Virus record (IMG/VR): IMGVR_UViG_3300034072_002195
Location: 1-26,226 of that record
Reading direction: 5' to 3' (one strand)
DNA length: 26,226 nt
Source of the DNA: a virus
The translations under genes and the position numbers were made by a program. Positions within the stretch are counted from its first letter, which is position 1. The number at the start of each line of letters is the position of its first letter. This document shows positions 1,556 through 23,127 of this stretch, one piece after another. The notes beneath the pieces are model-generated. The model was given only the letters and a program-made list of their open reading frames with translations. It was not told where the DNA came from and did no database searches.

Positions 1556-1561
1556 TAAATA
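1556..1561 (+). promoter_or_regulatory. TAAATA element 1 (candidate phage promoter) before the tail tube gene
   Basis: TAAATA followed by GTCGCG, in the 73-bp gap between tail terminator and tail tube genes. If it acts as a -10 element, transcription would start near 1568, leaving a leader that carries GAGGAG 5 nt before the ATG at 1606. No -35-like hexamer is seen at the normal distance. One of nine similar copies in the window. Confidence 0.5.
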
Positions 1562-1565
1562 GTCG

Positions 1566-1584
1566 CGAGCCAACTTCAGGCTCG
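1566..1584 (+). promoter_or_regulatory. Hairpin in the tail tube leader
   Basis: CGAGCC and GGCTCG form a 6-bp stem around a 7-nt loop, followed by TCATTATTTT. It lies at the predicted 5' end of the transcript from TAAATA element 1. It could be a weak terminator for read-through from the neck genes or a 5' stabilising hairpin on the tube mRNA; the sequence does not decide between them. Confidence 0.4.
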
Positions 1585-1605
1585 TCATTATTTTGAGGAG
1601 CCCGT

Positions 1606-2535
1606 ATGGCATTGATTAATCCATCGGACGTCACGTTCTCTCTCGTCCCCGAGGCAACTGCTGGCGTTCTTCCAACTGCAAGCGCATCGCGCTACGAAAT
1701 TCCTGCTAAGGCAGACCAGTCGATCATCGCATTCACCGCGAACGAGATCGCATCCAACACCAAGCGTCCAGGCCGTGCAGGCAACGGTATGCAGCGCGGC
1801 ATGGTGACCGGCAGCGGCTCGCTTGAAATGCGCCTCCAGTCGGCTCCCCTGTATTTCGCCCTCATGGAGAGCGCGCTTTCGGGCAAGTTCACCACCACCG
1901 GCACCAAGACCCTCAAGGCAGGCAGCACCGATAGCACCTTCTCGGTCCTCTCCGTGCTTCAGCTGACGCCATCTGTGATGGTCGAAGCCGCTTCGGGCGC
2001 AATGGTCAACAAGATGACCCTGAGCGCGAAGTTCGGTGACGAGGTGAATGTCTCGTTCGACGTTCTCGCCACCACGCAGGCTCAGCTAACCGCTGACAGC
2101 ACGCTAACCCTCACCACCATCCCCGGCTCCGCTTATGAGTTCGCTGGCAAGGACGTGTCGGCTGTCACTGTTGCGGGTAACTCCACCATCCAGTTCACCG
2201 AACTGAACCTGGAAGTCACGCAGGATCGTGTTGCACGCGGCAAGCTTGGCACCAACACTCCAATCGGCATCGGCACCAACGGCACTCGCACTGTCAAGCT
2301 CACCCTCAAGGCATACCGCGAGAGCTTTGCTGTTGATACGCTGCTCACCGGTCAGGCACAGTCGTTCAGCTTCACCATCGGTGCAGCAGGCAACGGCTAT
2401 GGTGTCTACATTCCAGCTGGCTTCGCTTCGATCCCTACCACGGAGTTCGACAGCGAGAGCGCATTCGTGAACATCGAAATCACCGCTGCTTACGACACTA
2501 CTCAGGCAACTGATCTGTACATCACCCAGCTATAA
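1606..2535 (+). CDS. Major tail tube protein
   Basis: A 309-aa protein that starts with INPSDVTFSLVPEATAGVLP, a beginning typical of siphovirus tail tube proteins (they open with a strand and an E-x-T-xG-x-x-P turn). The rest is rich in Thr, Ser, Ala and Gly with alternating hydrophobic residues, as expected for a beta sandwich with long loops. It polymerises in hexamer rings around the tape measure to form the non-contractile tube. GAGGAG sits 5 nt before the ATG. It stands alone between a candidate promoter and a strong UUCG-type terminator, unlike the overlapped genes before it, which fits the high copy number needed for a tube subunit. Confidence 0.8.
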   Translation: MALINPSDVTFSLVPEATAGVLPTASASRYEIPAKADQSIIAFTANEIASNTKRPGRAGNGMQRGMVTGSGSLEMRLQSAPLYFALMESALSGKFTTTGTKTLKAGSTDSTFSVLSVLQLTPSVMVEAASGAMVNKMTLSAKFGDEVNVSFDVLATTQAQLTADSTLTLTTIPGSAYEFAGKDVSAVTVAGNSTIQFTELNLEVTQDRVARGKLGTNTPIGIGTNGTRTVKLTLKAYRESFAVDTLLTGQAQSFSFTIGAAGNGYGVYIPAGFASIPTTEFDSESAFVNIEITAAYDTTQATDLYITQL

Positions 2536-2573
2536 GCTTTGTGACCACTCCCCTTTGCAACTCCGGTCACAGG

Positions 2574-2599
2574 ATGGAGCAGTCTTCGGACTGCTCCAT
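2574..2599 (+). terminator. Strong hairpin terminator (UUCG loop) after the tail tube gene
   Basis: ATGGAGCAGTC and GACTGCTCCAT form a perfect 11-bp stem closed by a TTCG tetraloop, followed by a short T tract (TTT then CC). A weaker inverted repeat, GTGACC/GGTCAC at 2541-2546 and 2565-2570, lies just before it. Both are between the tube stop and the next promoter-like element. Confidence 0.8.
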
Positions 2600-2618
2600 T
2601 TCCATATGCGCGTCGCGG

Positions 2619-2624
2619 TAAATA
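2619..2624 (+). promoter_or_regulatory. TAAATA element 2 (candidate phage promoter) before the tail chaperone genes
   Basis: CGCGG then TAAATA then GGTGCG, starting 19 bp after the tube terminator. A promoter is expected here because the terminator would otherwise silence the chaperone genes. The ATG is 37 nt downstream of the first T, with AAGGGG 9 nt before it as ribosome binding site. No -35 consensus. Confidence 0.55.
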
Positions 2625-2655
2625 GGTGCGTACTTTAACAAAGGGGTTACACACC

Positions 2656-3096
2656 ATGACCAAGACTACCAAGAAGCCCGCATTCAAGAAGCTTGTTCGC
2701 TTCGATGCCAACAAGGCTGCAAAGGGCGTTCCACACCACATCGTTGACGAGAACGGCAACGACTATGGCACCTGGACCACTTCGCTGTTCGACGTTCATA
2801 ACAAGTTCCTCAAGGTCGAGAACGAGCGCTACGAGCGTGAGCATGGCGACAGCGAGAATGCCAAGGGCAAGAACGCGGGCGTCTTCGCATTCGTTCAGGT
2901 CTGCCTACATGACTGGAGCGGCGTTGTTGACGAGAACGATCAGGCCATTCCGTTCAGTAAGGAACTGGCGTTCGAGTATCTAACCGACGAGGACAACGCC
3001 TGGTTCGTTGGCGAGCTTATCGGTCGTTCGCAGGACGTGCGCTACTACCGCGCAGTCACCCCAGCTGCCACCAAGGAAGCTGACGCGGGAAACTAA
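2656..3096 (+). CDS. Tail assembly chaperone, short form (lambda gpG analogue)
   Basis: The ATG at 2656 was chosen because AAGGGG lies 9 nt upstream and the 146-aa product then begins with a lysine-rich segment (MTKTTKKPAFKKLVRF). The gene lies between tube and tape measure, the fixed place of tail assembly chaperones, and its last two sense codons, GGA AAC, form the slippery part of a -1 frameshift site directly before the TAA stop. No strong family motif was recognised in the protein; the residues near 30-60 look helical and charged. In related phages the short and the frameshifted forms bind the tape measure and recruit tube subunits; neither ends up in the virion. Confidence 0.8.
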   Translation: MTKTTKKPAFKKLVRFDANKAAKGVPHHIVDENGNDYGTWTTSLFDVHNKFLKVENERYEREHGDSENAKGKNAGVFAFVQVCLHDWSGVVDENDQAIPFSKELAFEYLTDEDNAWFVGELIGRSQDVRYYRAVTPAATKEADAGN

Positions 3097-3422
3097 TCGC
3101 CTTTCTCGACTGGTGGGTTTTCAAGGATGGCGCTGAACTCACCGATCTAGCCGAGAAAGGCGAAGCGATGGCGATCAGCAAAGTCGCTAGGGCTCCCAAG
3201 CTAACGAACACGTTACACTGGGAAAGCTTCTGGGACTTGCATACCGAGCGCATCAACGGAATGAGCCTCGGTCCTATCCCCATTAGCAAAATGCATTGGT
3301 ACGCCGATGTAGAGTTAGGGCTAGACGACGATGAAAAGTCCGCATTCATCTACATCATGCGGCGCGTAGATAGCTTCTTCGTTTCCAAGCAGAACGCCAA
3401 AGCAAATAGCAAATCCTCATAA
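2656..3422 (+). CDS. Tail assembly chaperone, frameshifted long form (gpGT analogue)
   Basis: A -1 slip on G_GGA_AAC at 3087-3093 moves ribosomes from the G frame into an open frame that continues to the stop at 3420-3422. The extension begins CTA ATC GCC (L-I-A-F-L-D-W-W-V-F) and has no stop for 109 codons, giving a fusion of about 255 residues. The downstream frame has an internal ATG at 3168 but no good ribosome binding site before it, so the segment is best read as a T domain made only by frameshifting. It contains a tryptophan-rich start and an acidic stretch (VELGLDDDEK). In lambda, the T part contacts the tube protein while the G part coats the tape measure. Confidence 0.85.
3087..3163 (+). 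promoter_or_regulatory. Programmed -1 ribosomal frameshift signal: slippery heptamer plus stem-loop
   Basis: The heptamer GGGAAAC (3087-3093) is in the right phase (G GGA AAC) and is followed at once by the TAA stop of the G frame. Downstream, TCGCCTTTCTCG (3097-3108) and CGAGAAAGGCGA (3152-3163) form a perfect 12-bp stem. Inside its loop GGTGGGTT (3112-3119) pairs with AACTCACC (3136-3143) over 8 bp with one G-U pair. The result is a long hairpin starting 3 nt after the slip site; the lowest pairs may be melted by the ribosome, giving the usual spacing of 5-9 nt. Confidence 0.9.
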
Positions 3423-3438
3423 CCAACGATCCTCCCGG

Positions 3439-3444
3439 TAAATA
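3439..3444 (+). promoter_or_regulatory. TAAATA element 3 (candidate phage promoter) before the tape measure gene
   Basis: CCCGG then TAAATA then CCCGCA. It forms the left half of a near-perfect inverted repeat, GGTAAATACC (3437-3446) with GGTATTTGCC (3453-3462). The ATG at 3474 is 35 nt downstream of the first T and has GGGAGG 4 nt before it. The hairpin would lie at the start of the predicted transcript. Confidence 0.5.
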
Positions 3445-3473
3445 CCCGCACAGGTATTTGCCAGGGAGGCGCC

Positions 3474-6400: not shown

Positions 6401-7790
6401 CGCGGGCAAGATGCTGGACAGCCTCTTCAAGTCGGACACCTGGGCCAAGCCGTTCAAGTCGATGAGCGACGGCTTCTCCGATCTCAAGAGCGTGTTCACC
6501 GGCACCAACGGCGGCTTCATGCAGGCGCTGGGCAAGGTTGCTGGCACGGCAGCAGCAGGCGCGCAGATTGGTTCGCTGACCAACAGCGTTCTCGGCGCGG
6601 TCGGCATCAAGCTCAACGGCACCGGCTCGCAGATTGGTGGCGCACTCGGCAGCGCGTTCGGCCCTATCGGCTCGATCCTGGGCAGCATCGGCGGCGGCAT
6701 CCTGGGCAACCTGTTCACCAGCGCACCACGCGGTAAGGCGATCATCACCAGCGGCAAGGATGCGCAGATCAGCGGCAACAAGGGCAGCGTGCGCGACGCG
6801 CTGGCCGGTACGTCAGGTTCCATTCAGAGCGGCTTGCAGAACATCGCGAGCCAGCTGGGTGGCGACCTGGGCAACTTCATGGTGTCCATCGGCAAGTACA
6901 AGGACAGCTACCGCGTTTCGTCCACGGGTTCGAGCAACGTCGATGGGAAGAAAACCAGCCGCATCAGCGGTCTGCTCTATGATGGCAAGGACGAAGCACA
7001 GGCCATCTCGATTGCGATCAAGGACGCAATCCTTGACGGTGCGATCACGGGTCTATCCGACCTGATGAACAAGGCGCTCAAAGCCTACGCGGGCAATGTG
7101 GACAAGGCGGTCAACACCGCTCTCCAGATGAAGAACTTCGAGGACGACTATAAGGCGCTGACCGATCCTATCCGCGCTGCCGTGGACAGCATCATCAATC
7201 CCCTGACCGCGCTCCGCAAGAGCATGGTGGAGGTTGGCGCAACCACTGCCGACCTGACCAAGCTGGACGAGTACCGCGCGAAGAAGCTGGATGCCGTTCT
7301 CAAGGATCAGGTGTCCGGTTTCCAGAGCCTGCTCGATAGCCTGAACGGCGATGGTGGCGGTGTCACGGCGCTGACCCAGCTGACGCAGAACCTCGCCAAG
7401 CTGGACAGCTTCAAGGCCGATCTAGCGGCGGGCAAGACAATCGACCAGGATGCATTCACGTCCCTGGCCGACAAGATCATGAACGGTGCGGGCAGCGTCT
7501 ACGGTACGAACACCACGGACTTCCAGGACATCATCGGCACGCTCAAGGGCCTGACAACCGGCGCGATCACCAATGCGACCAGCGCATTCAACGCGGCTGC
7601 TGGCGCGGACACCACGACCAAGGCGATCACCGATCAGACCAACGCGGTCACCGCGTCCATCGGCATCACCAACGACTATCTGCGCGTAATCGCGAATGCA
7701 GTGTCGTCCGGTGCGCTCACCCAGAACCAGGGCGCTGCTCTCTCGGCAAAGGCCGAGGTGCAGGATGGTAGGGTGCAACAGGCTTTTTGA
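3474..7790 (+). CDS. Tail tape measure protein
   Basis: A 1438-aa protein with the domain plan of tape measures. The N-terminal 60 residues are coiled-coil-like. Residues about 95-120 form a hydrophobic segment (GGVSLAIGAIGVASIKAAA). The block around 140-165 with FASTTPFDLGQSIDAFVKLR is the signature of the conserved tape-measure N-terminal domain. Several glycine/alanine-rich hydrophobic segments follow to about 600, then a charged helical region from about 680 to 870, and another hydrophobic stretch at about 1030-1085. The protein sets tail length, roughly 0.15 nm per residue in known phages, so about 200 nm here. It fills the tube and is later ejected with the DNA. Near the C-terminus, residues 1398-1411 (ITNDYLRVIANAVS) recur in the small protein at 14483. 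Confidence 0.92.
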   Translation: MSDALFQIDVSIDPSKAAPGINQLDAGLAHLERRQRSVQAANDNLKGTFDRLGSSMGGAAGHGGKLSAIFDNIKERASGAAPEVANLTNTLGKMGPMAAVIGGVSLAIGAIGVASIKAAAQTQQWMAQLETTTKSSQKAKDSYNALVKFASTTPFDLGQSIDAFVKLRQMGMAATEGRMKSFGNTAAATGKTLKQMIEAVADAGTFQFERLLEFGIKANTVGNKVKFTFAGVTTTVDKNSQAIVKYLENIGNTNYAAAMDKQMDTLNGAFSNVGDNLQQMLSGIGNGELGNAVKEIAKSLANGITAISPFMASLGNFFGSIISGVGSILNGLGSVWSSINTGGKGVQPILDTLTSGINLLADGIKIIGNTVGSVFGGIGSAINSASGSVMNYLGLNSKAAKDSVGWADLIRASWQVLGGQVNAIKSQVANAFTSLWTGAKGTLGQIGSFLASSFATPLNGIKSMFNSVAGWFKQTFGDLTFSPEGIATGAARAVDLLIGTFRGGINVIGVLFNELPGTIWASLSPGFQTILASGWALLKGIGSMVGQVYTAVTGFGASLGKSIASVFNSVSSYIEGVANSAINMINKVITAANKLGAGMSTVANVQVAKVPVPKTNTAAESAWSTLGNHLGSAFNRGFGHEAETGINKVIRVARGMRGKPVADNGLDAGSDATPENPAGKNKKDKGAAEAERRAKREKEFWDALNGEVETAKRLPLAAEDYRKQLELQKILGHELGAQDIARIGSLMQQARTAKFVTTALDDHAKRGAELANQEQQLRAKLLGATDEQLALENKIADFRLNAQRQGVDLQSEGYKAAEAQLRLDEQRAQVLDRQNASLARGLDVARQYSGSYARSQEMVGLGKARQDLDTLWNGGNNGGKLTQEQYKEATEGLRKAGVEVANRWKDEFGARIDQIGEQFGGVMGQAISKFGKIIQALNAAAQGDWTKAGPLGSIIGLLGKTAGGKDTAFGIGANASAGKMLDSLFKSDTWAKPFKSMSDGFSDLKSVFTGTNGGFMQALGKVAGTAAAGAQIGSLTNSVLGAVGIKLNGTGSQIGGALGSAFGPIGSILGSIGGGILGNLFTSAPRGKAIITSGKDAQISGNKGSVRDALAGTSGSIQSGLQNIASQLGGDLGNFMVSIGKYKDSYRVSSTGSSNVDGKKTSRISGLLYDGKDEAQAISIAIKDAILDGAITGLSDLMNKALKAYAGNVDKAVNTALQMKNFEDDYKALTDPIRAAVDSIINPLTALRKSMVEVGATTADLTKLDEYRAKKLDAVLKDQVSGFQSLLDSLNGDGGGVTALTQLTQNLAKLDSFKADLAAGKTIDQDAFTSLADKIMNGAGSVYGTNTTDFQDIIGTLKGLTTGAITNATSAFNAAAGADTTTKAITDQTNAVTASIGITNDYLRVIANAVSSGALTQNQGAALSAKAEVQDGRVQQAF

Positions 7791-7799: not shown

Positions 7800-7805
7800 T
7801 AAATA
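7800..7805 (+). promoter_or_regulatory. TAAATA element 4 (candidate phage promoter, near-leaderless position)
   Basis: GCGCG then TAAATA then GCTG and ATG. The first T is 10 nt before the ATG at 7810. A GGAGG lies at 7791-7795, 14 nt before the ATG, further than a normal Shine-Dalgarno. Acting as a -10 element it would place the transcript start at or within 2 nt of the start codon. Confidence 0.5.
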
Positions 7806-7809
7806 GCTG

Positions 7810-8166
7810 ATGGCGACACTTGATCCAAATCGCGCTGCATTCGTGCAGCAGGAATACCGCTACGCAACGGCAACCGATCCCGCCGTGAAGGCGCGCAATC
7901 CGTCCGCTCGCACGGTGGAAATCAACACCAACCTCAATGAGGGAGACGCGACCGCGCTGGCGGCGAAGATCCTCGCGGACAACAATACGCCTCGCGTGTT
8001 CGAGGTGGTCCTTGAGGGTGTGGTTTTCCTGGATAGCTTCATTGGCAGCGTGCCTACGTTCATCGCAAATCTCCCCACGTTCAGCACGGACGGCAAGGCC
8101 CGCAAGGTCATGTCGTTCACGACCGATTTTGGAGCGAACACCACGACCATCCAGGTGCGCGGATGA
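7810..8166 (+). CDS. Putative tail-tip structural protein, small
   Basis: A 118-aa protein not matched to a named family. The sequence reads as helix, then beta strands (ARTVEINTN, FEVVLEGVVFLDSFIG, KVMSFTTDFGANTTTIQVRG), consistent with a small virion protein. Its place between the tape measure and the larger tip proteins is where lambda M or distal-tail-type proteins are coded. It overlaps the next gene by ATGA, so the two are likely made in similar amounts. Function beyond tail tip or tail completion is inference from position. Confidence 0.5.
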   Translation: MATLDPNRAAFVQQEYRYATATDPAVKARNPSARTVEINTNLNEGDATALAAKILADNNTPRVFEVVLEGVVFLDSFIGSVPTFIANLPTFSTDGKARKVMSFTTDFGANTTTIQVRG

Positions 8167-8953: not shown

Positions 8954-8959
8954 TAAATA
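8954..8959 (+). promoter_or_regulatory. TAAATA element 5 (candidate phage promoter, leaderless position)
   Basis: CAAGCG then TAAATA then CACGC and ATG. The first T is 11 nt before the ATG at 8965 and there is no Shine-Dalgarno at normal spacing; the nearest purine run, AAGGAA at about 8935, is over 20 nt away. GCGT and ACGC flank the element as a short inverted repeat. Used as a -10 box it predicts a transcript that begins at the ATG itself. Confidence 0.55.
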
Positions 8960-8964: not shown

Positions 8965-11900
8965 ATGGCGAACAACATCCTTTTCGAAGTCACCGTTCTA
9001 AAGAACGGCACCACTCCCGAGACCCTCCACATGGCGAGCGCGTTCGCTACAAAGGCGGGCGTTCAGATCAACAACTTTCAGTGGGTTCCGCTAATCACGA
9101 AGTTGACCGCAATTTCGGGTAGCTGGTCAGATAACGGGGTCTTCCAGCAGGGCTCTATCAACTACTCTGGACTCTCGTTCCGCATGAGCGAGGCCTACGA
9201 CAACAATAAGTGGTCTGCCTATGAGTGGACCGGCGCACTTGCTCGCATCTATATCCAGACCGGCGACAACGAAGGCGACTTCGCATCCTACAAGCAGATT
9301 TTCGAAGGCACCGTCTCCAGTCTTGATCGCCAGGGCCCGGAAGCAACGGTCGCTCTCCTCGGACCGGATGCGCTTCTAGATCGCGATCTACTGACCCTGG
9401 AATATGCGGGCTCCGGCGCTGCCGAAGGCCCAGCGAGCCTTAATGGCAATCTCAAGCCGATGGCACTCGGCAACTGCCAGAATGTGGAGCCGGTGCTGAT
9501 CGACCCCGCGCGCTGGATCTATCAGGTTCACGGCTACGGCGCAGTTCAGGGCATCACCCCTTACGAGTACGCACAGGCGCTCGATCCCGCGAAGAACAAG
9601 GGCGACGCTTCCGATTACGCGACCCTGGCGAACCTAACCCTCGCTCCTGGCGAATGGGCAACTTGCGCAGCACAGGGCATGTTCCGCTTTGGCGGCGCTC
9701 CATCGAAGAAGGTCACTGCCGACGTGAGTGTCGGCGGCATGAGCGCCGGAACCATCATCTCCTCGCTGCTCACCCAGGCAGGAATTCCCGGCGCAAAGAT
9801 CGCTATTGGCCTGCTCCCGCAGAACTGGAGCTTCTACGCCAAGGAGCAGACTTCCATTGGTGAGGTTGCGCGTCTCGCGGCATTCCACACCGGCAACGTG
9901 CTGTTCGCCGATGGCACCGGCACATGGCAGACCATGGACTTCTATTCGTCGAAGGCTCCAATCACCCTGAACGCAGACCGCAGCAGCACGCCGCTGGTCA
10001 AAAGCTACAAAGAACTCAACGCGGCGGCTCCCGTTTGGAAGGTTCGCGTCGGTCATACGAAGTGCTGGAGCGTGCATTCCAGCAGCGACGTTTCGCCCTC
10101 GCTCGCCATCAACAGCGATGATGTCCAGGCTGCAAAGGATGCGGCCCAGCGTGCGCAGGAAGCTGCCCAGACCGCGCAATCCGATGCGAACATCGCCAAG
10201 CAGCGCCTGGATGCCATTGAAAGCGACGGCATCCTGGACCGCAGCGAGAAGGCCGACATTGTGCAGCGCTTTGGCTCCTACACCGCCGAGCGCACCGGCT
10301 TGCTCGCGCAAGGTTTGTCGTTCCTGCTTCCGACGCAGCGAGCGGCTTACGAAACCGCATACTCGCAGCTGAAAAGCTACCTCGAGGGCTTGTCACCAGC
10401 ATACACGGACAGCACCCAGAACACGCCTATCGACCGCGCGACGTTCAGCGCTCGCTTCAACGCCTATCTCGACGCGCGACAGGCGCTGCTCAACGCTATC
10501 GACACCAAAGCAAAGTCGCTGGCCGATTGGAACGGCGTCACTGGTCCCGGCAAGCCTGCCGACAATGCGACCGTGGGTGCGCCGATCGGCACCAACGTGG
10601 GCGATGTGCCAGCTGGTTCGATTGCGGATGCGGTCAAGGACAGCACCGGCACCGTAAAGCCTGCACGCGATCAGATTGCCGCCGTCAAAGCCACCATCGA
10701 CGCCAACGTGACGAAGGTCACCAACGACCTCGCGGATGAGGTTGCACGCGCCAAGGGCAAGGAAGGCACGCTCGAAACCAGCATCACCAATGTGAAGATA
10801 ACCGCCGATCAGACCGCTGCCGGTCTCCAGGATCAGGTGACCATCACGAACAACCTGGCCAACCGCGCAGTGTCCCTGGAAGCGACAGCAACTTCCTCGT
10901 CAACCGGCGCAGCACTCAATCCAAACTTCGCCCGCTGGGTTTCGACCGATCCAACTCCAACCAGCTGGAACAGCTGGGAGATGAAGGGCTCGGCCCGCTT
11001 CGCTCGCGTGAATGGCGGCGGCGTACGCGGCAGTCCCTACGCGGTCGATGCGCGGAACGACACGCCCAACGTCAATTGGGGCCTCGTGCAGGTCGTCGCG
11101 ATGTATCCCGGCAAGTGGGTCATCGAATGCAGCATGATCCTCGACCAAGGCGGAACCCGTGGCGCTGGTGTCACCCTCAGTGGCGTCGCCGGAATGGGCA
11201 TCGACTTCATGATCGAGCCCGACCTTAACGGCTACACGGGCAACGTGCAGGGTGTCCGTTCGTGGTCGAAGACCGTCGATTGGACGATGACCGGCAATGT
11301 GAACCTCCACGCCATGTGCGGGTGGGATGGCTTCGGCCCTACCATCGACGCAAAGTACATGCGCTGGTTCTACCTCAATGTTCGCCCCGTGACCGATGGC
11401 GAATTGAAGGGTCTGCGTGCCGACACGAACGCAACTTCCGCTCTGGCGAAGATCAGCACGGAAGAGACAGCGCGCATCAACGGCGACAACGTGGCTGCGC
11501 AGAAGATCAGCACCGTCGAAGCCAACTACAGTCGCGGCGGCTACCTCAACCGCAATGCGCTGTTCAACGAAACATGGAGCCCCGGCCTTCCACCCGGCTG
11601 GTCGAACTGGGCAACGGAGGGCAGTCCCGCGATTGGCAAGTGGGAAGGGTCCGGCATCTACGGCGGTGGCGCTCTGCGCATCGACCGAACCGGCACCAAC
11701 TGCGGCGTCATGCAGCAGCTGGACGGCAGCTTCCCCAAGGGTTGGTATGTCATGGAATGCGAGATGCGCTTTGAAGCTGGCCAGACGGCTGGCTCCGGTA
11801 TGCTCGCGCAGTTCCGACGCGGTGACAACACCGAGCATTCAGCTGGCTTCGTGCCCTTCGACAGCACCCCCGACACCGCAGGTTTCACCGGCCACGATGC

Positions 11901-13014
11901 CGATCGCGTCCGCAAGTTCACCAAGCTCGTCTGGTGCAACGAGGATAGCCCGCGCATCGTCTTCTACCTCATGGCCGGTTGGGAGGGCTTCAAGAACCCA
12001 TCCGTTGGCTACCTGCGCACGATCTGGTTCAAGGCAGGCATCCGCCCCGCAACCAAGACCGAGATTGATGGCAAGACCGTCATTGACGCGAATGTCGTCG
12101 CTCGCGTTGGTTCGCTGGAAACGACGACCTCGAACCAAAACACCGCGACCGCAAGCCGTCTGAGCTTCCTGGAAGCGGGCTACAGCACGGACAGCGGATC
12201 GATCAACGTCAACCCGACGTTCAAGAACTGGCCCGATGGCACCACGCTTCCTAGCAGCTGGTCCTGGTGGGACAGCACTGCACCAGCGATCCGTGCAGCG
12301 GGCGTCAACGGGCGGCCCTACGCGCTCCAGTTCAATGCCCCGGCCAACTCAAACAGTGGGCTCGTGCAGGGCGGCATCAGCGCCGCGTTCGGTGCCTACG
12401 TCATCGAGTTCTCGGGCCGCGCTACCGACTGGCAAGGTGCTGGCGTCCTCGTCTACTTCCTAGATGCCAGCGGCGGCATCGTAGAAGCCAGAGCGATCAG
12501 CGCAGCGGCAACGGCAGACACATCGGGATACGTCAACCGCGATGGTGGCGGCGGTGCCTATACGCGCACGTTCCCGGCTTTCTACAAGACAGCCATCAAC
12601 GGCAACATTCGTCAGATCCAAATCTATGCGATGGCCAATTGGGATGGCTTCGGCGAGCGCGCAGCGAAGACGATCACGTTCGACAAGGTAAGCGTCCGCC
12701 CAGCCACATCGGCGGAGATCAACGGCCAGAAAATTGAAGACAGCAACGTGCTGGCGCGTGTCAGCACGTCGGAAGGCGCTATCAGCGGCTTGCAGGATCG
12801 CACCCGCGCATTCTGGCAGGTGCAGGCGGTCGCAGGCAACAACCGCGCTCAGCTGGGGCTCTACGCGGATGCCAACGGCGGTGCAGGCGTGGACATCGTT
12901 GGCGATGTCGCGATCCGCGGTTCTGGAGGCAGCGGACAGACCGTCATCAATCAAACTGGCCTGTTCATCTATCACCCGAACGGCGTGAACGTCGTTGAGA
13001 TCAGCAGCCGATGA
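8965..13014 (+). CDS. Tail tip / central fibre protein (lambda J-like) with three tandem sandwich modules
   Basis: A 1349-aa protein. Residues 1 to about 370 look like the beta-rich tip hub domains (EGTVSSLDRQGPEATVALLG, then PARWIYQVHGYG). From about 385 to 430 is an alanine/glutamine-rich coiled coil, followed by GILDRSEKADIVQRF and helices to 520, the pattern of J-like neck regions. Three related modules follow at about 650-805, 858-1030 and 1078-1245. Each starts N-P/A-x-F-x-x-W, contains W-S/N-x-W, a strand with VIEF/VMECE, a late AxxGWDGF, AGWEGF or ANWDGF element and ends VRPAT/VRPVT. The last 75 residues (AFWQVQAVAGNNRAQLGLYA) resemble the DUF1983-type end of J proteins. It would contact the host surface; the modules may bind glycans. 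Confidence 0.75.
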   Translation: MANNILFEVTVLKNGTTPETLHMASAFATKAGVQINNFQWVPLITKLTAISGSWSDNGVFQQGSINYSGLSFRMSEAYDNNKWSAYEWTGALARIYIQTGDNEGDFASYKQIFEGTVSSLDRQGPEATVALLGPDALLDRDLLTLEYAGSGAAEGPASLNGNLKPMALGNCQNVEPVLIDPARWIYQVHGYGAVQGITPYEYAQALDPAKNKGDASDYATLANLTLAPGEWATCAAQGMFRFGGAPSKKVTADVSVGGMSAGTIISSLLTQAGIPGAKIAIGLLPQNWSFYAKEQTSIGEVARLAAFHTGNVLFADGTGTWQTMDFYSSKAPITLNADRSSTPLVKSYKELNAAAPVWKVRVGHTKCWSVHSSSDVSPSLAINSDDVQAAKDAAQRAQEAAQTAQSDANIAKQRLDAIESDGILDRSEKADIVQRFGSYTAERTGLLAQGLSFLLPTQRAAYETAYSQLKSYLEGLSPAYTDSTQNTPIDRATFSARFNAYLDARQALLNAIDTKAKSLADWNGVTGPGKPADNATVGAPIGTNVGDVPAGSIADAVKDSTGTVKPARDQIAAVKATIDANVTKVTNDLADEVARAKGKEGTLETSITNVKITADQTAAGLQDQVTITNNLANRAVSLEATATSSSTGAALNPNFARWVSTDPTPTSWNSWEMKGSARFARVNGGGVRGSPYAVDARNDTPNVNWGLVQVVAMYPGKWVIECSMILDQGGTRGAGVTLSGVAGMGIDFMIEPDLNGYTGNVQGVRSWSKTVDWTMTGNVNLHAMCGWDGFGPTIDAKYMRWFYLNVRPVTDGELKGLRADTNATSALAKISTEETARINGDNVAAQKISTVEANYSRGGYLNRNALFNETWSPGLPPGWSNWATEGSPAIGKWEGSGIYGGGALRIDRTGTNCGVMQQLDGSFPKGWYVMECEMRFEAGQTAGSGMLAQFRRGDNTEHSAGFVPFDSTPDTAGFTGHDADRVRKFTKLVWCNEDSPRIVFYLMAGWEGFKNPSVGYLRTIWFKAGIRPATKTEIDGKTVIDANVVARVGSLETTTSNQNTATASRLSFLEAGYSTDSGSINVNPTFKNWPDGTTLPSSWSWWDSTAPAIRAAGVNGRPYALQFNAPANSNSGLVQGGISAAFGAYVIEFSGRATDWQGAGVLVYFLDASGGIVEARAISAAATADTSGYVNRDGGGGAYTRTFPAFYKTAINGNIRQIQIYAMANWDGFGERAAKTITFDKVSVRPATSAEINGQKIEDSNVLARVSTSEGAISGLQDRTRAFWQVQAVAGNNRAQLGLYADANGGAGVDIVGDVAIRGSGGSGQTVINQTGLFIYHPNGVNVVEISSR

Positions 13015-14108: not shown

Positions 14109-14114
14109 TAAATA
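14109..14114 (+). promoter_or_regulatory. TAAATA element 6 (candidate phage promoter)
   Basis: CCGCT then TAAATA then GCTGGA, just after the tip gene stop. The ATG at 14149 is 40 nt downstream of the first T and carries GAGGGAG 9 nt before it. The element would drive the three small genes up to 15156. Confidence 0.5.
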
Positions 14115-15926: not shown

Positions 15927-17048
15927 TTATGCTAGATTGACCGCTCCCTTGAAGCGGCTATTTCCTTCGAACTTGACCGGTACAGCCACGCGGCTATCCC
16001 CGTCGATAATCGTTGCTGCCGTTGGGATCGTACCTTCCCAATGCAAAATTACCACCTGCTGGTCCATGACCGGCGATTTGAAGCAGTGCGTGTCTTCGCT
16101 GGCATACAGCCCGCTCATCGTTGAATAGGACGCCACGCCGGTCTGCTTTGCCTCCTGGGGCACCACCGCATCCGCGACATCGCTTGCCATCATCGAGAGC
16201 CACGCTCCGTTGCCCTGGGTCTCGGGGATCGCCTCCAGCTCGCCGAAGAAGGGGTTGAAGCTCAGGGGGAAACGGATGCCGCCCACTTCCAGGTTGCCGG
16301 TGGCGCGCAGCTTACCCCGGCGCTTGTCCTCTTTGACCCAGATCGTCAGGGCGTCGCGCTTGTCCGCGCCGCGCTTCCTATGACCCAATTCTTCCGTCTC
16401 ACTTCCTGGATGAATGGGAGGAGGCTCAGTGCCGTCATGTTGTTCTGGCTGAACTTCTGGCGTAATAGATGGCTGAATTCCTGGCTCCTCATGGACATGC
16501 GAAGCAGCGATCATGCCAGGCTCATGATTTAGTTTAGTTTCCATTAGTTTACTTGAGTACCAAAACCTCAGCTTTTCTGCGAGGTTTGGCGTCATATCTG
16601 CTGAAACGGTGCTGAACTGATGCTGAAAAGATGCTGAAACGATGCTGAAATACTGCTGAAAGGCCTCCATCAATTCAGCATCCTCGACTTCCGTTTCAGC
16701 AGTCGTTTCAGCAGCACCGCCAGGAACTGCACGGCTCTGGCCATCGGCGTACAGCTGATCAAACGGCGCCATGTCCTTCCATCCCATCTTCGCAGCATAG
16801 GTGCGCTGGTGACGAGAGAGGACAATCGGTCCGTCATGCTCGATATCGACCTTTGCACGAATGCGGATATTGGACAGCAGAGCGTCTTTGACCTTGCCGT
16901 CGATGCCACGAGGATGGAACAGCCCGGATACAGCCTTGCTGACTGCGCCGTAGGTCTTCTTGTCCTGGATGAAATTGAATTCGCCCGTGCCAATGGTTGC
17001 GAGCACGGCCTGAACGTGGGCTAGCCACTTGGTGTTGTTTTTTCTCAT
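15927..17048 (-). CDS. Unknown 373-aa protein with a repeat-bearing linker (candidate replication-associated protein)
   Basis: The start MRKNNTKWLAHVQAVLATIG at 17048 has GAGG 6 nt upstream; the open frame goes on to 17099 without a better site. Residues 1 to about 105 form a compact N-terminal domain, possibly DNA-binding (AVSKAVSGLFHPRGIDGKVK). Residues about 115-250 are low-complexity and acidic or proline-rich. Residues about 255-373 form a second, beta-rich domain (GKLRATGNLEVGGIRFPLSF to the C-terminus). The DNA coding the linker holds six 11-bp direct repeats and an AT-rich tract. A two-domain protein with origin-like repeats in the linker-coding DNA recalls lambda O. No initiator motif was recognised, so the replication role is inference. 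A terminator-like hairpin lies in its leader. Confidence 0.65.
   Translation of the reverse strand: MRKNNTKWLAHVQAVLATIGTGEFNFIQDKKTYGAVSKAVSGLFHPRGIDGKVKDALLSNIRIRAKVDIEHDGPIVLSRHQRTYAAKMGWKDMAPFDQLYADGQSRAVPGGAAETTAETEVEDAELMEAFQQYFSIVSASFQHQFSTVSADMTPNLAEKLRFWYSSKLMETKLNHEPGMIAASHVHEEPGIQPSITPEVQPEQHDGTEPPPIHPGSETEELGHRKRGADKRDALTIWVKEDKRRGKLRATGNLEVGGIRFPLSFNPFFGELEAIPETQGNGAWLSMMASDVADAVVPQEAKQTGVASYSTMSGLYASEDTHCFKSPVMDQQVVILHWEGTIPTAATIIDGDSRVAVPVKFEGNSRFKGAVNLA
16525..16713. other. Candidate replication origin or regulator-binding array
   Basis: Three elements lie together inside the 373-aa gene. An AT-rich tract at 16525-16557 has about 24 percent GC in a clearly GC-rich window and contains TTTAG repeats. 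The six 11-bp repeats lie at 16599-16664. Three inverted copies of the core (TTCAGCA) lie at 16674-16680, 16695-16701 and 16707-16713. Iterons next to an easily melted tract are the plan of iteron origins. The alternative is an autoregulatory binding array or simple slippage. Confidence 0.45.
16599..16664 (+). repeat. Six direct repeats with exact 11-bp period (TGCTGAA core), iteron-like
   Basis: Units start at 16599, 16610, 16621, 16632, 16643 and 16654. Each begins TGCTGAA; the remaining four bases vary (ACGG, CTGA, AAGA, ACGA, ATAC, AGGC). The period is not a multiple of three, so the repeat is kept at DNA level rather than as a peptide repeat. Eleven bp is about one helical turn, which would place all sites on one face of the DNA. 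Confidence 0.85.
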
Positions 17049-17059
17049 GTCAAACCTCA

Positions 17060-17104
17060 AAAATGAACAAACCCGCCTGTTGCGGGTCCAGTGCAACAAG
17101 CGGG
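17060..17104 (-). terminator. Terminator-like hairpin (possible attenuator) in the leader of the 373-aa gene
   Basis: On the minus strand CCCGCTTGTTGC (17104-17093) pairs with GCAACAGGCGGG (17083-17072) around a 9-nt loop with one G-U pair, followed by TTTGTTCATTTTT. It ends only about 12 nt before the start codon at 17048. It may stop read-through from the HNH gene or attenuate transcription from TAAATA element 7 at 17190. Confidence 0.55.
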
Positions 17105-17184
17105 CGTAGATTTGTTCAATTGGGGTTGTGAACTACGGGACCGCTGTCATGAGCGACAGCTTTTGGACCCTGTGCTCACATCAC

Positions 17185-17190
17185 TATTTA
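17185..17190 (-). promoter_or_regulatory. TAAATA element 7 (minus strand) before the 373-aa gene
   Basis: On the minus strand GGAATAC then TAAATA then GTGATG, between the HNH gene stop (17214) and the 373-aa gene start (17048). The leader would be about 130 nt and would contain the terminator-like hairpin. Confidence 0.4.
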
Positions 17191-17213
17191 GTATTCCTCG
17201 TCAAAAAATGTCA

Positions 17214-17729
17214 TTAATGAAATGATTTACGCCCTCTATCCATCTTGCTCATCGTGATGGCTTCTTCAATCGTGTACCCGCGCTTTATGCGACCGTGCAA
17301 AGCGCTCCTAGTCAGGCCCAGGCGCTTGGCCCACTGAGGCAGCGTAAGGCTCTCACCGTTGTAGGTGAACACGTTGGCATTGGTAGTTTTCGGACCGCTA
17401 CCAACACGCGTCTTGCTCCGTGCCCGCTTCACTCGAATAATGATCTTTTTCTTTCTCGGGCGCTGGTTCGCACTCTGCTCGGCGCGGGTTGCCCATCTAC
17501 AGTTTCCCGGCTCGTAGTTCCCGTCGTTATCAATGCGTTCGAGTGAATGACCGTCTGGGCGCTTCCCCATGTCATCAAGAAAAGTTTCGAAGCTGTCATA
17601 CCAACGGTCGCAGACCTCTATCCCGCGACCACCATAGTTGCAGAACCACTTCAGTTTGGGATTACGGCAGCGGTGGCGCATGGCCAACCACGAATTGTAT
17701 TCTCGTTTGTTCTCTGTGATCAGTGTCAT
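17214..17729 (-). CDS. HNH-like homing-type endonuclease with C-terminal helix-turn-helix
   Basis: A 171-aa protein from the ATG at 17729; another ATG at 17750 has no better ribosome binding site, and 17729 fits the TAAATA-to-ATG spacing seen elsewhere. Residues about 18-90 carry HRCRNPKLKWFCNYGGRGIE, then VCDRWYDSFETFLDDMG, SLERIDNDGNYEPGNCRWAT and EQSANQR. This is the signature of a large phage family usually called HNH-like or homing endonuclease, where the His/Asn-rich element near the end supplies metal and catalytic groups. A basic linker follows, then a helix-turn-helix at about 130-165 (LTLPQWAKRLGLTRSALHGR) for DNA recognition. It lies alone between unknown genes, as a mobile gene would. 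A second family member is at 21657. Confidence 0.75.
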   Translation of the reverse strand: MTLITENKREYNSWLAMRHRCRNPKLKWFCNYGGRGIEVCDRWYDSFETFLDDMGKRPDGHSLERIDNDGNYEPGNCRWATRAEQSANQRPRKKKIIIRVKRARSKTRVGSGPKTTNANVFTYNGESLTLPQWAKRLGLTRSALHGRIKRGYTIEEAITMSKMDRGRKSFH

Positions 17730-17734
17730 GCATA

Positions 17735-17740
17735 TATTTA
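17735..17740 (-). promoter_or_regulatory. TAAATA element 8 (minus strand, leaderless position)
   Basis: On the minus strand AACCAT then TAAATA then TATGC and ATG; the first T is 11 nt before the ATG at 17729, the same spacing as elements 5 and 9. No Shine-Dalgarno is present. It supports the start chosen for the HNH-like gene. Confidence 0.45.
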
Positions 17741-17890: not shown

Positions 17891-17919
17891 CGCAAGCTCA
17901 GGAAGCGTCTCTACGACGT

Positions 17920-18135: not shown

Positions 18136-18205
18136 GCCACCTCCCCACACTTGTGGTTGACGTTCATTTTGACTCCTTGAAATACTGTTTGAATGCCGCA
18201 GAGCT

Positions 18206-19578: not shown

Positions 19579-19587
19579 GTTGTTCAA

Positions 19588-20593: not shown

Positions 20594-20598
20594 TAGGA

Positions 20599-20631
20599 GA
20601 AGCGCCGCCCACAAACGTGGATCGGCGCTTC
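20599..20631. terminator. Bidirectional terminator-like hairpin
   Basis: GAAGCGCCG (20599-20607) pairs perfectly with CGGCGCTTC (20623-20631); the loop holds a second small stem (CCAC/GTGG). It lies between the convergent ends of the 288-aa gene and the GIY-YIG-like gene. There is no long T run on either side. Confidence 0.6.
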
Positions 20632-20686
20632 CGCATTTCGAAACGAGGTTTTGAGCAGACCGCGTTGAATGCGGCACCTTGCCGCA

Positions 20687-20696
20687 CGAGTACTTA
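20687..20696 (+). repeat. CGAGTACTTA repeat, copy 1 (right after the nuclease gene end)
   Basis: The 10-mer overlaps the stop codon of the GIY-YIG-like gene. An identical copy is at 21569-21578 directly before the endolysin start, and an inverted 9-mer copy at 21620-21628. The two direct copies bracket the endolysin plus nuclease unit. Confidence 0.5.
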
Positions 20697-21134
20697 GTCG
20701 AGCAAGCCCGCCGCCCGACGTTGATTTGCCGTATCCTGCATGTACCGCTCGCAACGCTCGTCGCTATGCCATCCCTGCACGACCTTGCGCTGATACTTCG
20801 CCGCGATGTTGCCGTTCATGCAAAGCGGATCGAGCATGGCATCCAGGCTCATCAGCATCCGCTCCTCGATATATCCGGCTTTGCCGGTGCTTTCCGTTAG
20901 CCGAAGGATCTCGCGCCGGCAGTTTGCATAGCCCGCGCTTTTGGCCGCGGCCTTCACGTCCTTGCTGCTCGACCAATAATCCCGCCAGTGGCTTTCCCCG
21001 ACGATCTTGCCGTCCTTCACGCGGTAGACGTTCTTTTTGCCGATATACCACCGGCCATCCGGTAGGGTGATCCGGTACACGAACGCGCGATAGGCCAGCA
21101 CGTCCAGGCCCTCGGGAACGATCCAGTCGCTCAT
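20694..21134 (-). CDS. GIY-YIG-like endonuclease
   Basis: A 146-aa protein with a GIY-YIG-type opening: FVYRITLPDGRWYIGKKN at about 18-35, where VY and YIG are the two signature elements. It continues with GESHWRDYWSSSKDV at about 46-60, NCRREILRLTEST at about 71-83 and an E-E pair in YIEERML near 90, the probable metal-binding glutamate. This pattern is common in phage-encoded nucleases resembling Seg-type homing enzymes. It starts at an ATGA overlap with the endolysin stop, so it travels and is expressed with the lysis gene. Whether it cuts phage, host or competitor DNA cannot be read from sequence. Confidence 0.7.
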   Translation of the reverse strand: MSDWIVPEGLDVLAYRAFVYRITLPDGRWYIGKKNVYRVKDGKIVGESHWRDYWSSSKDVKAAAKSAGYANCRREILRLTESTGKAGYIEERMLMSLDAMLDPLCMNGNIAAKYQRKVVQGWHSDERCERYMQDTANQRRAAGLLD

Positions 21135-21568
21135 GCGGGCTTGCGGAACAATGCCGCCTCCGCTGCACGACGACGGGTAAGCCCCGCGAGGGCTTTGCCA
21201 CCGGCCCTGTTCCAGCGCTCGAACTGAGCCGCTGCACCCTCATAGTCCTTGCCGTTGAGCAACCGCACCAGAGTGGAACCCGCAAACGCACCGGCACCGA
21301 TGTTGAACGCTAGTGCCACACATGCGTCGAACTGGTTCTGGTTGAGCGGCACCTTGACCGCTGCACTGACCGCCTTCTCGAACCGGGCGAGATCGGCACG
21401 CAACAGTGCCTCACTCTCCGCAGAAGTGATCTTCTGTCCTGGCTTAACGTCGGGTCCAGTGTGACCCACTCCCACAGTCAATATACCGGCGGGGCATAGG
21501 TAAGCGGTTAGTCGTTCGCCTTCGAACTGTTTGATTAGGGCAATGCCCGCACTCGATGTCTTTTGCAT
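21131..21568 (-). CDS. Endolysin, glycoside hydrolase family 24 (P1 Lyz-type catalytic Cys)
   Basis: A 145-aa lysozyme that cuts the glycan strand of peptidoglycan. IKQFEGERLTAYLCPAGILT at 12-31 carries the catalytic glutamate (E16), a cysteine (C25) where T4 lysozyme has aspartate, and T31; the E-9-C-6-T spacing is that of P1 Lyz. GVGHTG follows, and LNQNQFDACVALAFNIGAGA is the conserved second block. There is no N-terminal SAR or signal segment, so it should be cytosolic and need a holin for release. It is on the minus strand, away from the late tail operon, and overlaps the GIY-YIG-like gene. The divergent region before it carries operator-like repeats. Confidence 0.9.
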   Translation of the reverse strand: MQKTSSAGIALIKQFEGERLTAYLCPAGILTVGVGHTGPDVKPGQKITSAESEALLRADLARFEKAVSAAVKVPLNQNQFDACVALAFNIGAGAFAGSTLVRLLNGKDYEGAAAQFERWNRAGGKALAGLTRRRAAEAALFRKPA

Positions 21569-21656
21569 CGAGTACTTACCAGTGCGTTATAGCAGCACTT
21601 AACGTCGCATGTATCTCGATAAGTACTCTCGGAAACAAGGTTCCGAGGAGAGAGAC
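21569..21656. promoter_or_regulatory. Divergent control region between endolysin and HNH-like gene
   Basis: The 88-bp gap contains GAGTACTTA at 21570-21578 and its exact inverse TAAGTACTC at 21620-21628, both with the palindrome AGTACT, and between them AGTGC/GCACT at 21581-21585 and 21595-21599. GAGGAGAGAGAC just before 21657 is the ribosome binding site of the HNH-like gene. The nested inverted repeats look like binding sites for a dimeric regulator of both genes. Confidence 0.5.
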
Positions 21657-22223
21657 ATGCCTAGAAAGAAGAACAATCCACCATCACTACGTCAGCGACA
21701 CTTCCGAGAGTATCAAGCCTGGATCAATGCAATCCACCGCTGCCACAATCCCCGCAATCTAGCTTACAAGCGCTATGGCGCACGCGGCGGCATTGAAGTT
21801 TGCGGGACCTGGCGCGATGCAGAGAACGGCTTCCAGAACTTCTTCAATGATGTGGGAGTACGTCCAGAAGGCGACTACAGCCTGGAGCGCATCGACGGCA
21901 GCAAGGGCTACTCACCCGACAATTGCATCTGGGCGGATCGCAAGACACAACAGAACAACCGTTCTGGCTACAACCGCACCGAAGGCTACGGCCACGGCGT
22001 TGATCGCTACGGCAGTCCCTTTCTGGAATACCGGGGCGAGATCAAGACACTGGCCACATGGGCACAGGAGCTAGGGATTAAGGCTCCGACGATCCGCCAG
22101 CGCCTAGAGCGCGGAATGACTGTGGAACAGGCTTTGTCCGACCAGTCCTATCGCAGCATCGTAGATCGCCAGAAGCTTCTAACCTCCATGCTCGTCCGCA
22201 ACGACAGCCCAACGATCCACTAA
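21657..22223 (+). CDS. HNH-like homing-type endonuclease, second copy of the family
   Basis: The start at 21657 has GAGGAG 6 nt upstream; the frame runs on to 21609 without such a site. The 188-aa protein is a divergent relative of the one at 17214: AWINAIHRCHNPRNLAYKRY at 21-40, GARGGIEVCGTWRDAENGFQ, FFNDVGVRPEGDYSLERIDG, then GYSPDNCIWADRKTQQNN at 84-101. The GNCRWAT element of the first copy is here DNCIWAD. A helix-turn-helix follows at about 137-165 (IKTLATWAQELGIKAPTIRQ), probably for target binding. The last 20 residues have no counterpart in the first copy. The two copies differ enough to be separate acquisitions. Confidence 0.75.
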   Translation: MPRKKNNPPSLRQRHFREYQAWINAIHRCHNPRNLAYKRYGARGGIEVCGTWRDAENGFQNFFNDVGVRPEGDYSLERIDGSKGYSPDNCIWADRKTQQNNRSGYNRTEGYGHGVDRYGSPFLEYRGEIKTLATWAQELGIKAPTIRQRLERGMTVEQALSDQSYRSIVDRQKLLTSMLVRNDSPTIH

Positions 22224-22245
22224 GAACAAGAAGGAGAAAACTCCC

Positions 22246-22506
22246 ATGAAGACCGATGCCGAACTCGAAACGCTCATTCAGAACCTCATCGAGCGCATGA
22301 ACCGCGTTGAAGCCGCTGTAGCAAACATGAAACCTGTCGCTCCCGCAGATAACACGGCGGCGAAGTGCGCCATTGACCAGGCAATCGCCTCACTTGAGAA
22401 TGCCGCTGCGCTCTATGCGCAGAACACCAAGGACTTCGAAGGCATTGTCTCTGAACTAAAAGCGGCCAGTCGCAAGACCGGCGGAAAGCTACTCCGTGCG
22501 AATTGA
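22246..22506 (+). CDS. Small coiled-coil protein, 86 aa
   Basis: AAGGAG lies 9 nt before the ATG. The product is helical over nearly its full length (ELETLIQNLIERMNRVEAAV, then AIASLENAAALYAQNTKDFE) with heptad-like spacing of hydrophobic residues and a central break around KPVAPADNT. The C-terminus is basic. No family recognised. It lies in an operon with the following two genes. Confidence 0.6.
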   Translation: MKTDAELETLIQNLIERMNRVEAAVANMKPVAPADNTAAKCAIDQAIASLENAAALYAQNTKDFEGIVSELKAASRKTGGKLLRAN

Positions 22507-22645
22507 TATCCCACTAGAGGAAGAGTTCGAGATGCTGGGCGACGCGATTTTCGCCCTGCTCTCCTGGGACCCACACTGCCCATACGCACAGATCCTCGGC
22601 CAACGCCGGATGGACGTGCAGATTGAGCTATTCGAACAAAGCTAA
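22496..22645 (+). CDS. Very small protein, 49 aa, GTG start
   Basis: The frame starts with GTG at 22496, inside the end of the previous gene, with GGAAAG 7 nt before it, and runs to TAA at 22643-22645. The sequence VRIDIPLEEEFEMLGDAIFA then LLSWDPHCPYAQILGQ is acidic and amphipathic with one Cys. The overlap with the upstream gene, the ribosome binding site and an otherwise empty gap support it as real. No function can be assigned. Confidence 0.5.
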   Translation: MRIDIPLEEEFEMLGDAIFALLSWDPHCPYAQILGQRRMDVQIELFEQS

Positions 22646-22679
22646 AACTGGCCACGAGAAGCCAGAGAAAGAGAATACA

Positions 22680-23072
22680 ATGAACACCACGAAGATTTTC
22701 CTTGAGGAACTAACGGAAGCCCTGGAGCGCGCGATGGAGCGTGTGGTTGATCTGGATGCTGAGGAGATTTCCGACATCATGCTTGATGCAGTCAACGGCA
22801 ACCCAGCTGCAAAGCGTGCGATTACAAAGAGCTTTGACCGTAGCGAGAAGGTCAAGGAGCTTGCCAACTTGGCAGAGGCAGCGGTTCAGGGCATTGAACA
22901 TGCTAAAGGACAGTTCGCGAACGAAGCCTCAAACAGAGTTGAATACTTCCTCGGCATGGAATTTAGGAGTCTAAAAGAGGCAATCGACGCTTACACAAAT
23001 CGCTACCCTCGCAATCCAATTACCGTTGATGACATAAAGCTTCTCAATTCACGCGTCCGCCAAGCGAAGTAA
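22680..23072 (+). CDS. Unknown 130-aa helical protein
   Basis: The ATG at 22680 was chosen as the first with purine-rich sequence upstream (AGAGAAAGAG); the frame reaches back to 22623. The protein is helical and charged: EELTEALERAMERVVDLDAE, SFDRSEKVKELANLAEAAVQ and a C-terminal basic part (LNSRVRQAK). It is followed by a strong hairpin, so it closes the small-gene operon. No family recognised; a virion role is not indicated. Confidence 0.6.
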   Translation: MNTTKIFLEELTEALERAMERVVDLDAEEISDIMLDAVNGNPAAKRAITKSFDRSEKVKELANLAEAAVQGIEHAKGQFANEASNRVEYFLGMEFRSLKEAIDAYTNRYPRNPITVDDIKLLNSRVRQAK

Positions 23073-23080
23073 ACTGAACA

Positions 23081-23106
23081 ATGGCCGGGGGCACCTCCCC
23101 GGCCAT
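23081..23106 (+). terminator. Strong hairpin terminator before the tail-fibre operon
   Basis: ATGGCCGGGG and CCCCGGCCAT form a perfect 10-bp, very GC-rich stem with a 6-nt loop, 8 nt after the stop of the 130-aa gene. The T run is poor, but the stem alone is very stable. TAAATA element 9 follows 16 bp later. Confidence 0.65.
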
Positions 23107-23121
23107 AGCCATGACTGCCGG

Positions 23122-23127
23122 TAAATA
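23122..23127 (+). promoter_or_regulatory. TAAATA element 9 (candidate phage promoter, leaderless position) before the tail-fibre genes
   Basis: TGCCGG then TAAATA then GCGGC and ATG. The first T is 11 nt before the ATG at 23133. There is no Shine-Dalgarno. The arms TGCCG and CGGCA flank the element. As the tail-fibre operon follows a strong hairpin, some promoter is required here and this is the only candidate visible. Confidence 0.6.

Follow-up and report, generated by a model that had tools for sequence, protein, structure and literature searches.

The virus record IMGVR_UViG_3300034072_002195, a stretch of 26,226 nucleotides (nt) that was analysed over its whole length and is called the window here, encodes a set of siphophage-like proteins: head-tail connectors, a tail tube protein, chaperones, a tape measure protein, a J-like protein and an endolysin. 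Between its genes recurs the hexamer TAAATA, which, together with its variant TAAGTA (jointly TAARTA), is the subject of this study and is very probably a promoter of the virion genes.

TAAATA boxes in the window

Nine copies of TAAATA stand in the window (Table 1), where 2.05 (sd 1.28) are expected and none of 100 dinucleotide shuffles reaches nine. All nine lie in the intergenic DNA, which makes up 9% of the window with the gene starts as used here. The original prediction, drawn from a reading of the window, had described nine copies between genes, each aimed at the next gene, and every position it gave is right; its count holds for TAAATA, but it overlooked two copies of the TAAGTA variant, ahead of the endolysin gene and of an HNH endonuclease gene. 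A third TAAGTA, at 20691-20696 (-), is not followed by a gene.

The distances between box and gene had likewise been read correctly: from the first base of the box to the ATG they amount to 10-11 nt at 7800, 8954, 17740 and 23122, and to 35-50 nt at 1556, 2619, 3439 and 14109, and GAGG is indeed found 6 nt ahead of the ATG at 17048, the start served by the copy at 17190. The genes with an adjacent box lack a well-placed Shine-Dalgarno (SD) sequence, as had been claimed, the box itself filling the SD position, and the GGAGG at 7810 is 14 nt away. The strong hairpins noticed ahead of the copies at 2619 and 23122 are confirmed, with predicted energies of -22.8 and -22.1 kcal/mol. The 118-amino-acid (aa) gene at 23133, which follows the second of these hairpins, lies upstream of the tail fibre gene.

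Table 1. TAARTA boxes of the window, and the genes for which a leaderless mRNA is predicted
Feature	Position	Strand	Remarks
TAAATA	1556..1561	+	44 nt to ATG 1606, tail tube/minor tail protein; SD gagga, short leader hairpin
TAAATA	2619..2624	+	31 nt to ATG 2656, tail assembly chaperone; preceded by strong hairpin
TAAATA	3439..3444	+	29 nt to ATG 3474, tape measure protein; 8/8 sequences
TAAATA	7800..7805	+	4 nt to ATG 7810, 118-aa protein; predicted leaderless; 8/8 sequences
TAAATA	8954..8959	+	5 nt to ATG 8965, 1349-aa J-like tail protein; predicted leaderless
TAAATA	14109..14114	+	34 nt to ATG 14149, 114-aa protein; leader with SD
TAAATA	17185..17190	-	heads 136-nt leader before ATG 17048, leftward 373-aa gene
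TAAATA	17735..17740	-	5 nt to ATG 17729, HNH endonuclease; predicted leaderless
TAAATA	23122..23127	+	5 nt to ATG 23133, 118-aa protein; predicted leaderless; preceded by strong hairpin
TAAGTA variant	21573..21578	-	4 nt to ATG 21568, endolysin; predicted leaderless
TAAGTA variant	21620..21625	+	before ATG 21658, HNH endonuclease; leader with SD and hairpin
Gene, predicted leaderless mRNA	7810..8166	+	118 aa, phrog_19330
Gene, predicted leaderless mRNA	8965..13014	+	J-like tail protein
Gene, predicted leaderless mRNA	23133..23489	+	118 aa
Gene, predicted leaderless mRNA	17214..17729	-	HNH endonuclease
Gene, predicted leaderless mRNA	21131..21568	-	endolysin, phrog_7

Conservation and enrichment in related phages

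With the 257-aa protein of the window as query, two metagenomic viral contigs and a prophage of Sphingomonas sp. Leaf242 were found, and among 398 Sphingomonadaceae genomes that were searched a single complete prophage turned up, in G135, with a G+C content of about 0.50 against 0.65 in its host. Eleven further contigs of the family (G402-G412) were obtained with the G135 terminase as query and three additional ones (G416-G418) with a protein encoded beside the portal gene; the tail fibre gene produced short fibre-domain matches only and was of no use for finding relatives. Besides the window, 18 phage or prophage sequences carry the box, some of which share sequence (G402/G403, G406/G407), and G402, G404, G405, G408, G409, G411, G416, G417, G418, G135 and Leaf242 are among the relatives compared. 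In G413-G415 and G419, which are related more remotely through terminase or MuF, there is no TAAATA or one each. A tblastn search of 50,697 deposited phage records found no match to the 257-aa protein and the tail proteins.

When all 4096 hexamers were counted over 17 sequences (353 kb), TAAATA was the top intergenic hexamer, with 121 intergenic and 24 coding copies (z 23.8), and the best hexamer that does not overlap it reached z 9.5. Part of the 24 'coding' copies are artefacts of taking the longest open reading frame (ORF), such as the one at 17735 in the window. An enrichment between genes across relatives, by which the original prediction had proposed to check its reading, is thus found. 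The copies follow the coding strand, with counts for the coding and the other strand of 14:0 in the Leaf242 record, 12:0 in G403, 7:0 in G405 and G408, and 6:0 in G404 and G416; the counts of reversed-pattern controls are mostly lower than those of TAAATA.

The box is tied to particular genes. TAAATA precedes the capsid and tail tube genes in 9/9 sequences each, Ad1, the tail assembly chaperone gene TAC1, the tape measure gene and p118 in 8/8 each, and TerS in 11/12, the twelfth (G408) having a copy at 6880, inside the longest ORF. It is found before the portal gene in 9/10 sequences, before J in 7/8, with TAAGTA in the eighth, and before TerL in 8/13, and TAAGTA is present in six of the seven TAAATA gaps at TerL, portal and J. 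The scaffold gene has a box ahead in nearly every sequence. TAAATA is absent before Hc1 (0/10), Ne1 (0/7), Tc1 (0/8), TAC2 (0/7) and p257 (0/8), and stands before MuF in 1/10; these box-less genes closely follow or overlap the preceding gene. As the proteins of these phages are often just 30-60% identical and the box is nevertheless kept, the box outlives the DNA that surrounds it. That it is retained before the same gene units and on the strand of the gene, and is absent before closely coupled genes, supports the promoter reading first put forward for the window.

Distance to the start codon and flanking bases

Positions after the box are counted from d1, its first following base, onward through d5 and d6. 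An ATG lies 4-8 nt after the box at 54 sites, of which 46 have a spacer of 4 or 5 nt, and an SD-containing start at least 14 nt away at 89 others. The rate at which an ORF ATG follows within 4-5 nt is 27% for TAAATA (41/154) and 29% for TAAGTA (11/38), against a background of 0.9%, and these two are the only hexamers of all with a high rate. When the ATG begins at d6, d5 is a pyrimidine at 26/26 TAAATA sites, at 5/5 TAAGTA sites and at 7/7 sites of a second Leaf242 prophage (described below), i.e. in 38/38; when it begins at d5, d4 is G in 12/15, 5/6 and 4/4, respectively. A purine occupies d5 in 38/75 of the SD-type sites, and a pyrimidine precedes the ATG in just 42/66 SD-type genes, so that a general preference for C fails to explain the 38/38; the class with a 4-nt spacer, which has G before the ATG, breaks any general C-before-ATG rule. 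If transcription began on whichever of d5 and d6 is the first purine, both the d5 pyrimidine and the G of the 4-nt class would be explained. Transcription that begins on the A of the ATG at the ATG-adjacent sites, with the spacing of T4 late promoters, would fit these data and would produce leaderless mRNAs, as had been suggested for the window; the ATG 4-5 nt past the box and the invariable d5 pyrimidine of the 5-nt spacer both point in this direction.

Alignment of 54 sites revealed no -35 element or other conserved block upstream to -60, in agreement with the earlier statement that a -35 consensus is lacking. The G/C-rich flanks that had also been noticed are weak: there is a C/G bias upstream of the box and a preference for G at d1 and, stronger, at d4, and nothing beyond this. 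The two bases preceding TAAATA are not TA as a rule, and the eight-base T4 late box TATAAATA occurs 0 times in the window.

Inverted repeats around the box

Inverted repeats flank the box at the portal, tape measure, TerL and other genes. Ahead of the tape measure gene of the window, the box at 3439-3444 stands between CCTCCCGG (3431-3438) and the SD-bearing CCAGGGAGG (3461-3469), and the SD of this gene (3474) is predicted to be unpaired at 0.00 in read-through RNA and at 0.67 in RNA started after the box (rank 0.02 when hiding is compared with that under shuffled upstream sequence). The AUG of the HNH gene behind the 17740 box changes from 0.00 in the long RNA to 0.90 in the short one (rank 0.00), and that of the 23133 gene behind the 23122 box from 0.00 to 0.40 (rank 0.03). 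The AUG of the endolysin gene (21568) is closed in the long RNA, where a CTCGATG...CATCGAG hairpin (21552-21572) hides it, and 0.70 open in the short RNA; one arm of this hairpin lies in the spacer itself. Hiding of the ribosome binding site at every site was ruled out.

Host genomes and the search for a factor that reads the box

The 31-kb Leaf242 prophage contains 15 TAAATA, all on one strand, and the whole 4.3-Mb Leaf242 genome 172. Sixteen of the 20 occurrences of TAAATAn4-5ATG in this genome lie within two prophages (L024/L025 and L083-L085), and the reversed control pattern occurs twice. Most of the 398 family genomes have 0-2 copies of TAAATAnnnnYATG, which is about the control level. 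A use of the box by the hosts was rejected on these counts.

The second Leaf242 prophage, on contig C9 at about 168-209 kb, is of HK97 type. A blastp comparison of its head genes with those of the family gave no match, its J-like protein matches the family at 35%, and TAAATA stands 4-5 nt before the ATG of several of its genes including TerS, portal and tape measure, the roles of these genes being assigned by their order and sequence. Two prophages whose head genes are unrelated have the box code in common, and they also share a small orphan protein, F1 (32%, E 6e-17). F1 is found in G402, G404, G408, G411, G417 and L090 too, in G135 in a second search round, and not in G418; wherever its position is visible, its gene lies close to those of the terminase, a side that the window does not include. 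In a comparison of its predicted fold (pLDDT 83.6), PUR-alpha chains rank first, weakly (Foldseek E 0.15, VIA Z 5.3), and no sigma-factor structure is among the matches listed, so that F1 was not retained as a sigma factor and no function is claimed for it. By guilt by association F1 is a weak candidate for the reader of the box; PUR/Whirly-like by a weak structural match, it could be part of the machinery that reads TAARTA.

Searches with T4 gp55 by phmmer and tblastn returned chance scores only, and no T7- or N4-like phage RNA polymerase was recognised in the complete G135 prophage, some of whose proteins are without assignment. Among the non-structural genes of the family, the most widely conserved encodes a small serine resolvase and lies near terS/terL in most relatives, on one strand or the other; the resolvase was judged unlikely to read the promoter.

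Long leaders, HNH genes and the ends of the record

Leaders of 114-139 nt after the box precede leftward genes, some of them for replication (G001, G003, G135, G402, G417, G418). They contain a hairpin and, in many cases, a terminator-like stem immediately ahead of the SD, in relatives as well as in the window (17049-17184, -), where such a hairpin lies at about 17066-17106 in the leader of the leftward 373-aa gene. These leaders may possibly be attenuators or small RNAs; an Rfam search of the window, the 17049-17184 leader included, gave no match. Both HNH endonuclease genes of the window, 17214-17729 (-) and 21658-22223 (+), have TAARTA boxes of their own and are possibly mobile genes that carry their promoter along.

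At its left end the window reads MSKMGNRFSPEVRDRAVRMVGEH (1-74, -), the start of a transposase that we take to be of the IS3 type. The neighbouring head-tail adaptor gene (75-464) has lost both its normal N-terminus and its box, so the phage is cut at this end by an insertion or a chimeric join. The right end (25930-26226, +) consists of the C-terminal portion of a RadC-like gene, the start of which is missing, and the prophage may therefore be integrated in radC.

A probable promoter code for virion genes and its alternatives

We consider it very probable, at about 0.82, that TAARTA is a -10-only promoter which starts the virion-gene units of temperate sphingomonad siphophages, with leaderless mRNAs and a hairpin switch. 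Each virion-gene unit would be started separately from TAAATA or, less often, TAAGTA, at which host core RNA polymerase with a specificity factor would open the DNA and begin transcription on a purine 5-6 nt past the last A of the box. At about a third of the sites this purine would be the A of the ATG, the predicted mRNA would be leaderless, and translation would begin from a 5'-terminal AUG; at the remaining sites a leader of roughly 15-135 nt would carry an SD. In a subset (3439, 17740, 21578 and 23122 in the window) the box is situated within an inverted repeat that would pair with the SD or the AUG in read-through RNA, and RNA started from the box, being without the 5' arm, would leave the gene to be translated mainly from its own promoter. 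What the sequences themselves establish is the motif with its enrichment, orientation, gene-by-gene conservation, spacing and d5 rule; the activity as a promoter, the start point, the leaderless translation and the hairpin switch are inferred.

Several observations weigh against this interpretation. The Pfam family Sigma70_r2 (PF04542) and the gp55 family phrog_234 are unmatched in 12 records, most of them partial. Hiding is clear for a subset only, at 11/42 SD sites and 11/74 ATG-adjacent sites (shuffle rank <=0.05). In 10/10 capsid leaders (Leaf242, G135, G402, G404, G405, G408, G409, G416, G417 and G418) the box is followed at a distance of 1-2 nt by a stem of 9-12 pairs, which shows compensatory changes at d3 and d5 and differing pairs at d2, and an RNA that starts at d5 or d6 would have the lowest pairs of this stem cut off; at the capsid genes, either transcription starts further upstream, or the stem has its role in read-through RNA or in DNA. 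Moreover, sites ahead of orthologous genes are not independent, for which reason no p value is given for the d5 rule.

Could TAARTA be an unusual -10 element of the host sigma-70 holoenzyme, assisted by a phage activator upstream according to a GafA/GafYZ-like logic? Alphaproteobacterial gene transfer agents do use an activator together with RpoD (PMC11150451), and the unmatched searches for a phage sigma factor are in keeping with this. It is nevertheless rather unlikely, given that the DNA from -60 to the box is without conserved sequence, that TAAATA lacks the final T of TATAAT, and that no such sites were seen in hosts. It is also conceivable that UAARUA works in RNA started upstream, as a cleavage site or translation signal by which the 5' end beside the AUG or beside a protective hairpin is created or marked, and the compensatory changes in the capsid-leader stems directly after the box as well as the inverted repeats at portal, tape measure, TerL and other genes would agree with such a role. 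We regard it as improbable, however, because the box is also seen 14-139 nt ahead of starts with an SD, where a translation signal is impossible, and comes after strong hairpins at 2619 and 23122, and because the purine/pyrimidine rule at d5 fits the choice of a start point and has no evident reason in cleavage.

The stoperators of mycobacteriophage L5 are short asymmetric repressor sites oriented with transcription, and if the boxes were operators of this kind, at which a repressor silences the late genes in the lysogen, their intergenic and oriented placement would be accounted for as well. Stoperators need no fixed distance to an ATG, whereas here two hexamers alone combine a 4-5-nt spacing with the d5 rule, and the ATG-adjacent genes would then be left without SD or promoter, so that this explanation is very improbable. 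The DNA between genes tends to be richer in A and T than the genes themselves, and AT-rich hexamers may gather there by chance; this can practically be dismissed, being refuted by the z of 23.8 vs 9.5, by the conservation gene by gene and by the 4-5-nt spacing to the ATG, and the counts of the reversed-pattern controls, mostly lower, speak against it too.

Beyond the promoter itself, we tentatively propose, as a possibility that is somewhat doubtful, that a phage-encoded factor non-homologous to sigma-70 and gp55 directs host RNA polymerase to TAARTA, and that this factor is common to small temperate sphingomonad phages including the two Leaf242 prophages with their unrelated head genes; many virion proteins would then be made from leaderless mRNAs, and the box would serve as a switch that silences read-through. 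As no known sigma-like protein was found, this may represent a new way of redirecting bacterial RNA polymerase. The box would provide a simple promoter code for a hardly described phage group, whose marker proteins are unmatched among 50,697 deposited phage genomes. Leaderless starts are known chiefly for individual phage genes and for particular groups of bacteria and archaea, and the present data suggest that one phage can make several virion proteins from leaderless mRNAs.

Comparison with known systems

In the T4 late promoter (TATAAATA) the distance from the box to the start is about one helical turn, and a -35 is lacking (PMC2988020). The TAARTA promoter would share with this type, which depends on gp55, gp33 and gp45, a -10-like box only, with the core TAAATA at -11 to -6, and a predicted start about one helical turn downstream, which T4 numbering would place on d6. 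It differs in that the core is TAARTA without the leading TA, in its occurrence in small temperate siphophages, in that no gp55 was found, and in that about a third of the messages are predicted to be leaderless; Aeh1 also deviates at the same two leading positions of the box (PMC2988020). The likeness to T4-type late promoters suggested originally therefore stands for the architecture but not for membership: by analogy the TAARTA promoter would work like a T4 late promoter. A parallel for the inverted repeats is T4 gene e (lysozyme), the late promoter of which lies within a hairpin hiding the ribosome binding site (PMC3014915). The start region is hidden in read-through RNA, and RNA from the late promoter is without the 5' arm (PMC3014915), a layout that is present at the endolysin and tape measure genes of the window; the difference is that several virion genes, a TAARTA box and some leaderless starts are concerned here.

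In the gene transfer agents, the main cluster is expressed from a single -35/-10 promoter by means of RpoD, under the control of GafA/GafYZ (PMC11150451). Both cases present an alphaproteobacterial phage-derived structural cluster in need of a dedicated regulator, but the phages studied here have many separate boxes without a -35. In its translation logic the closest system is that of Deinococcus-Thermus, in which a -10 motif (TANNNT) next to ORFs gives leaderless mRNA (PMC12340547): there as here, a promoter box stands a few base pairs ahead of the ORF at a fixed spacing and without an SD, whereas TANNNT is the normal -10 element of the host and TAARTA is confined to prophages and placed mostly before virion genes.

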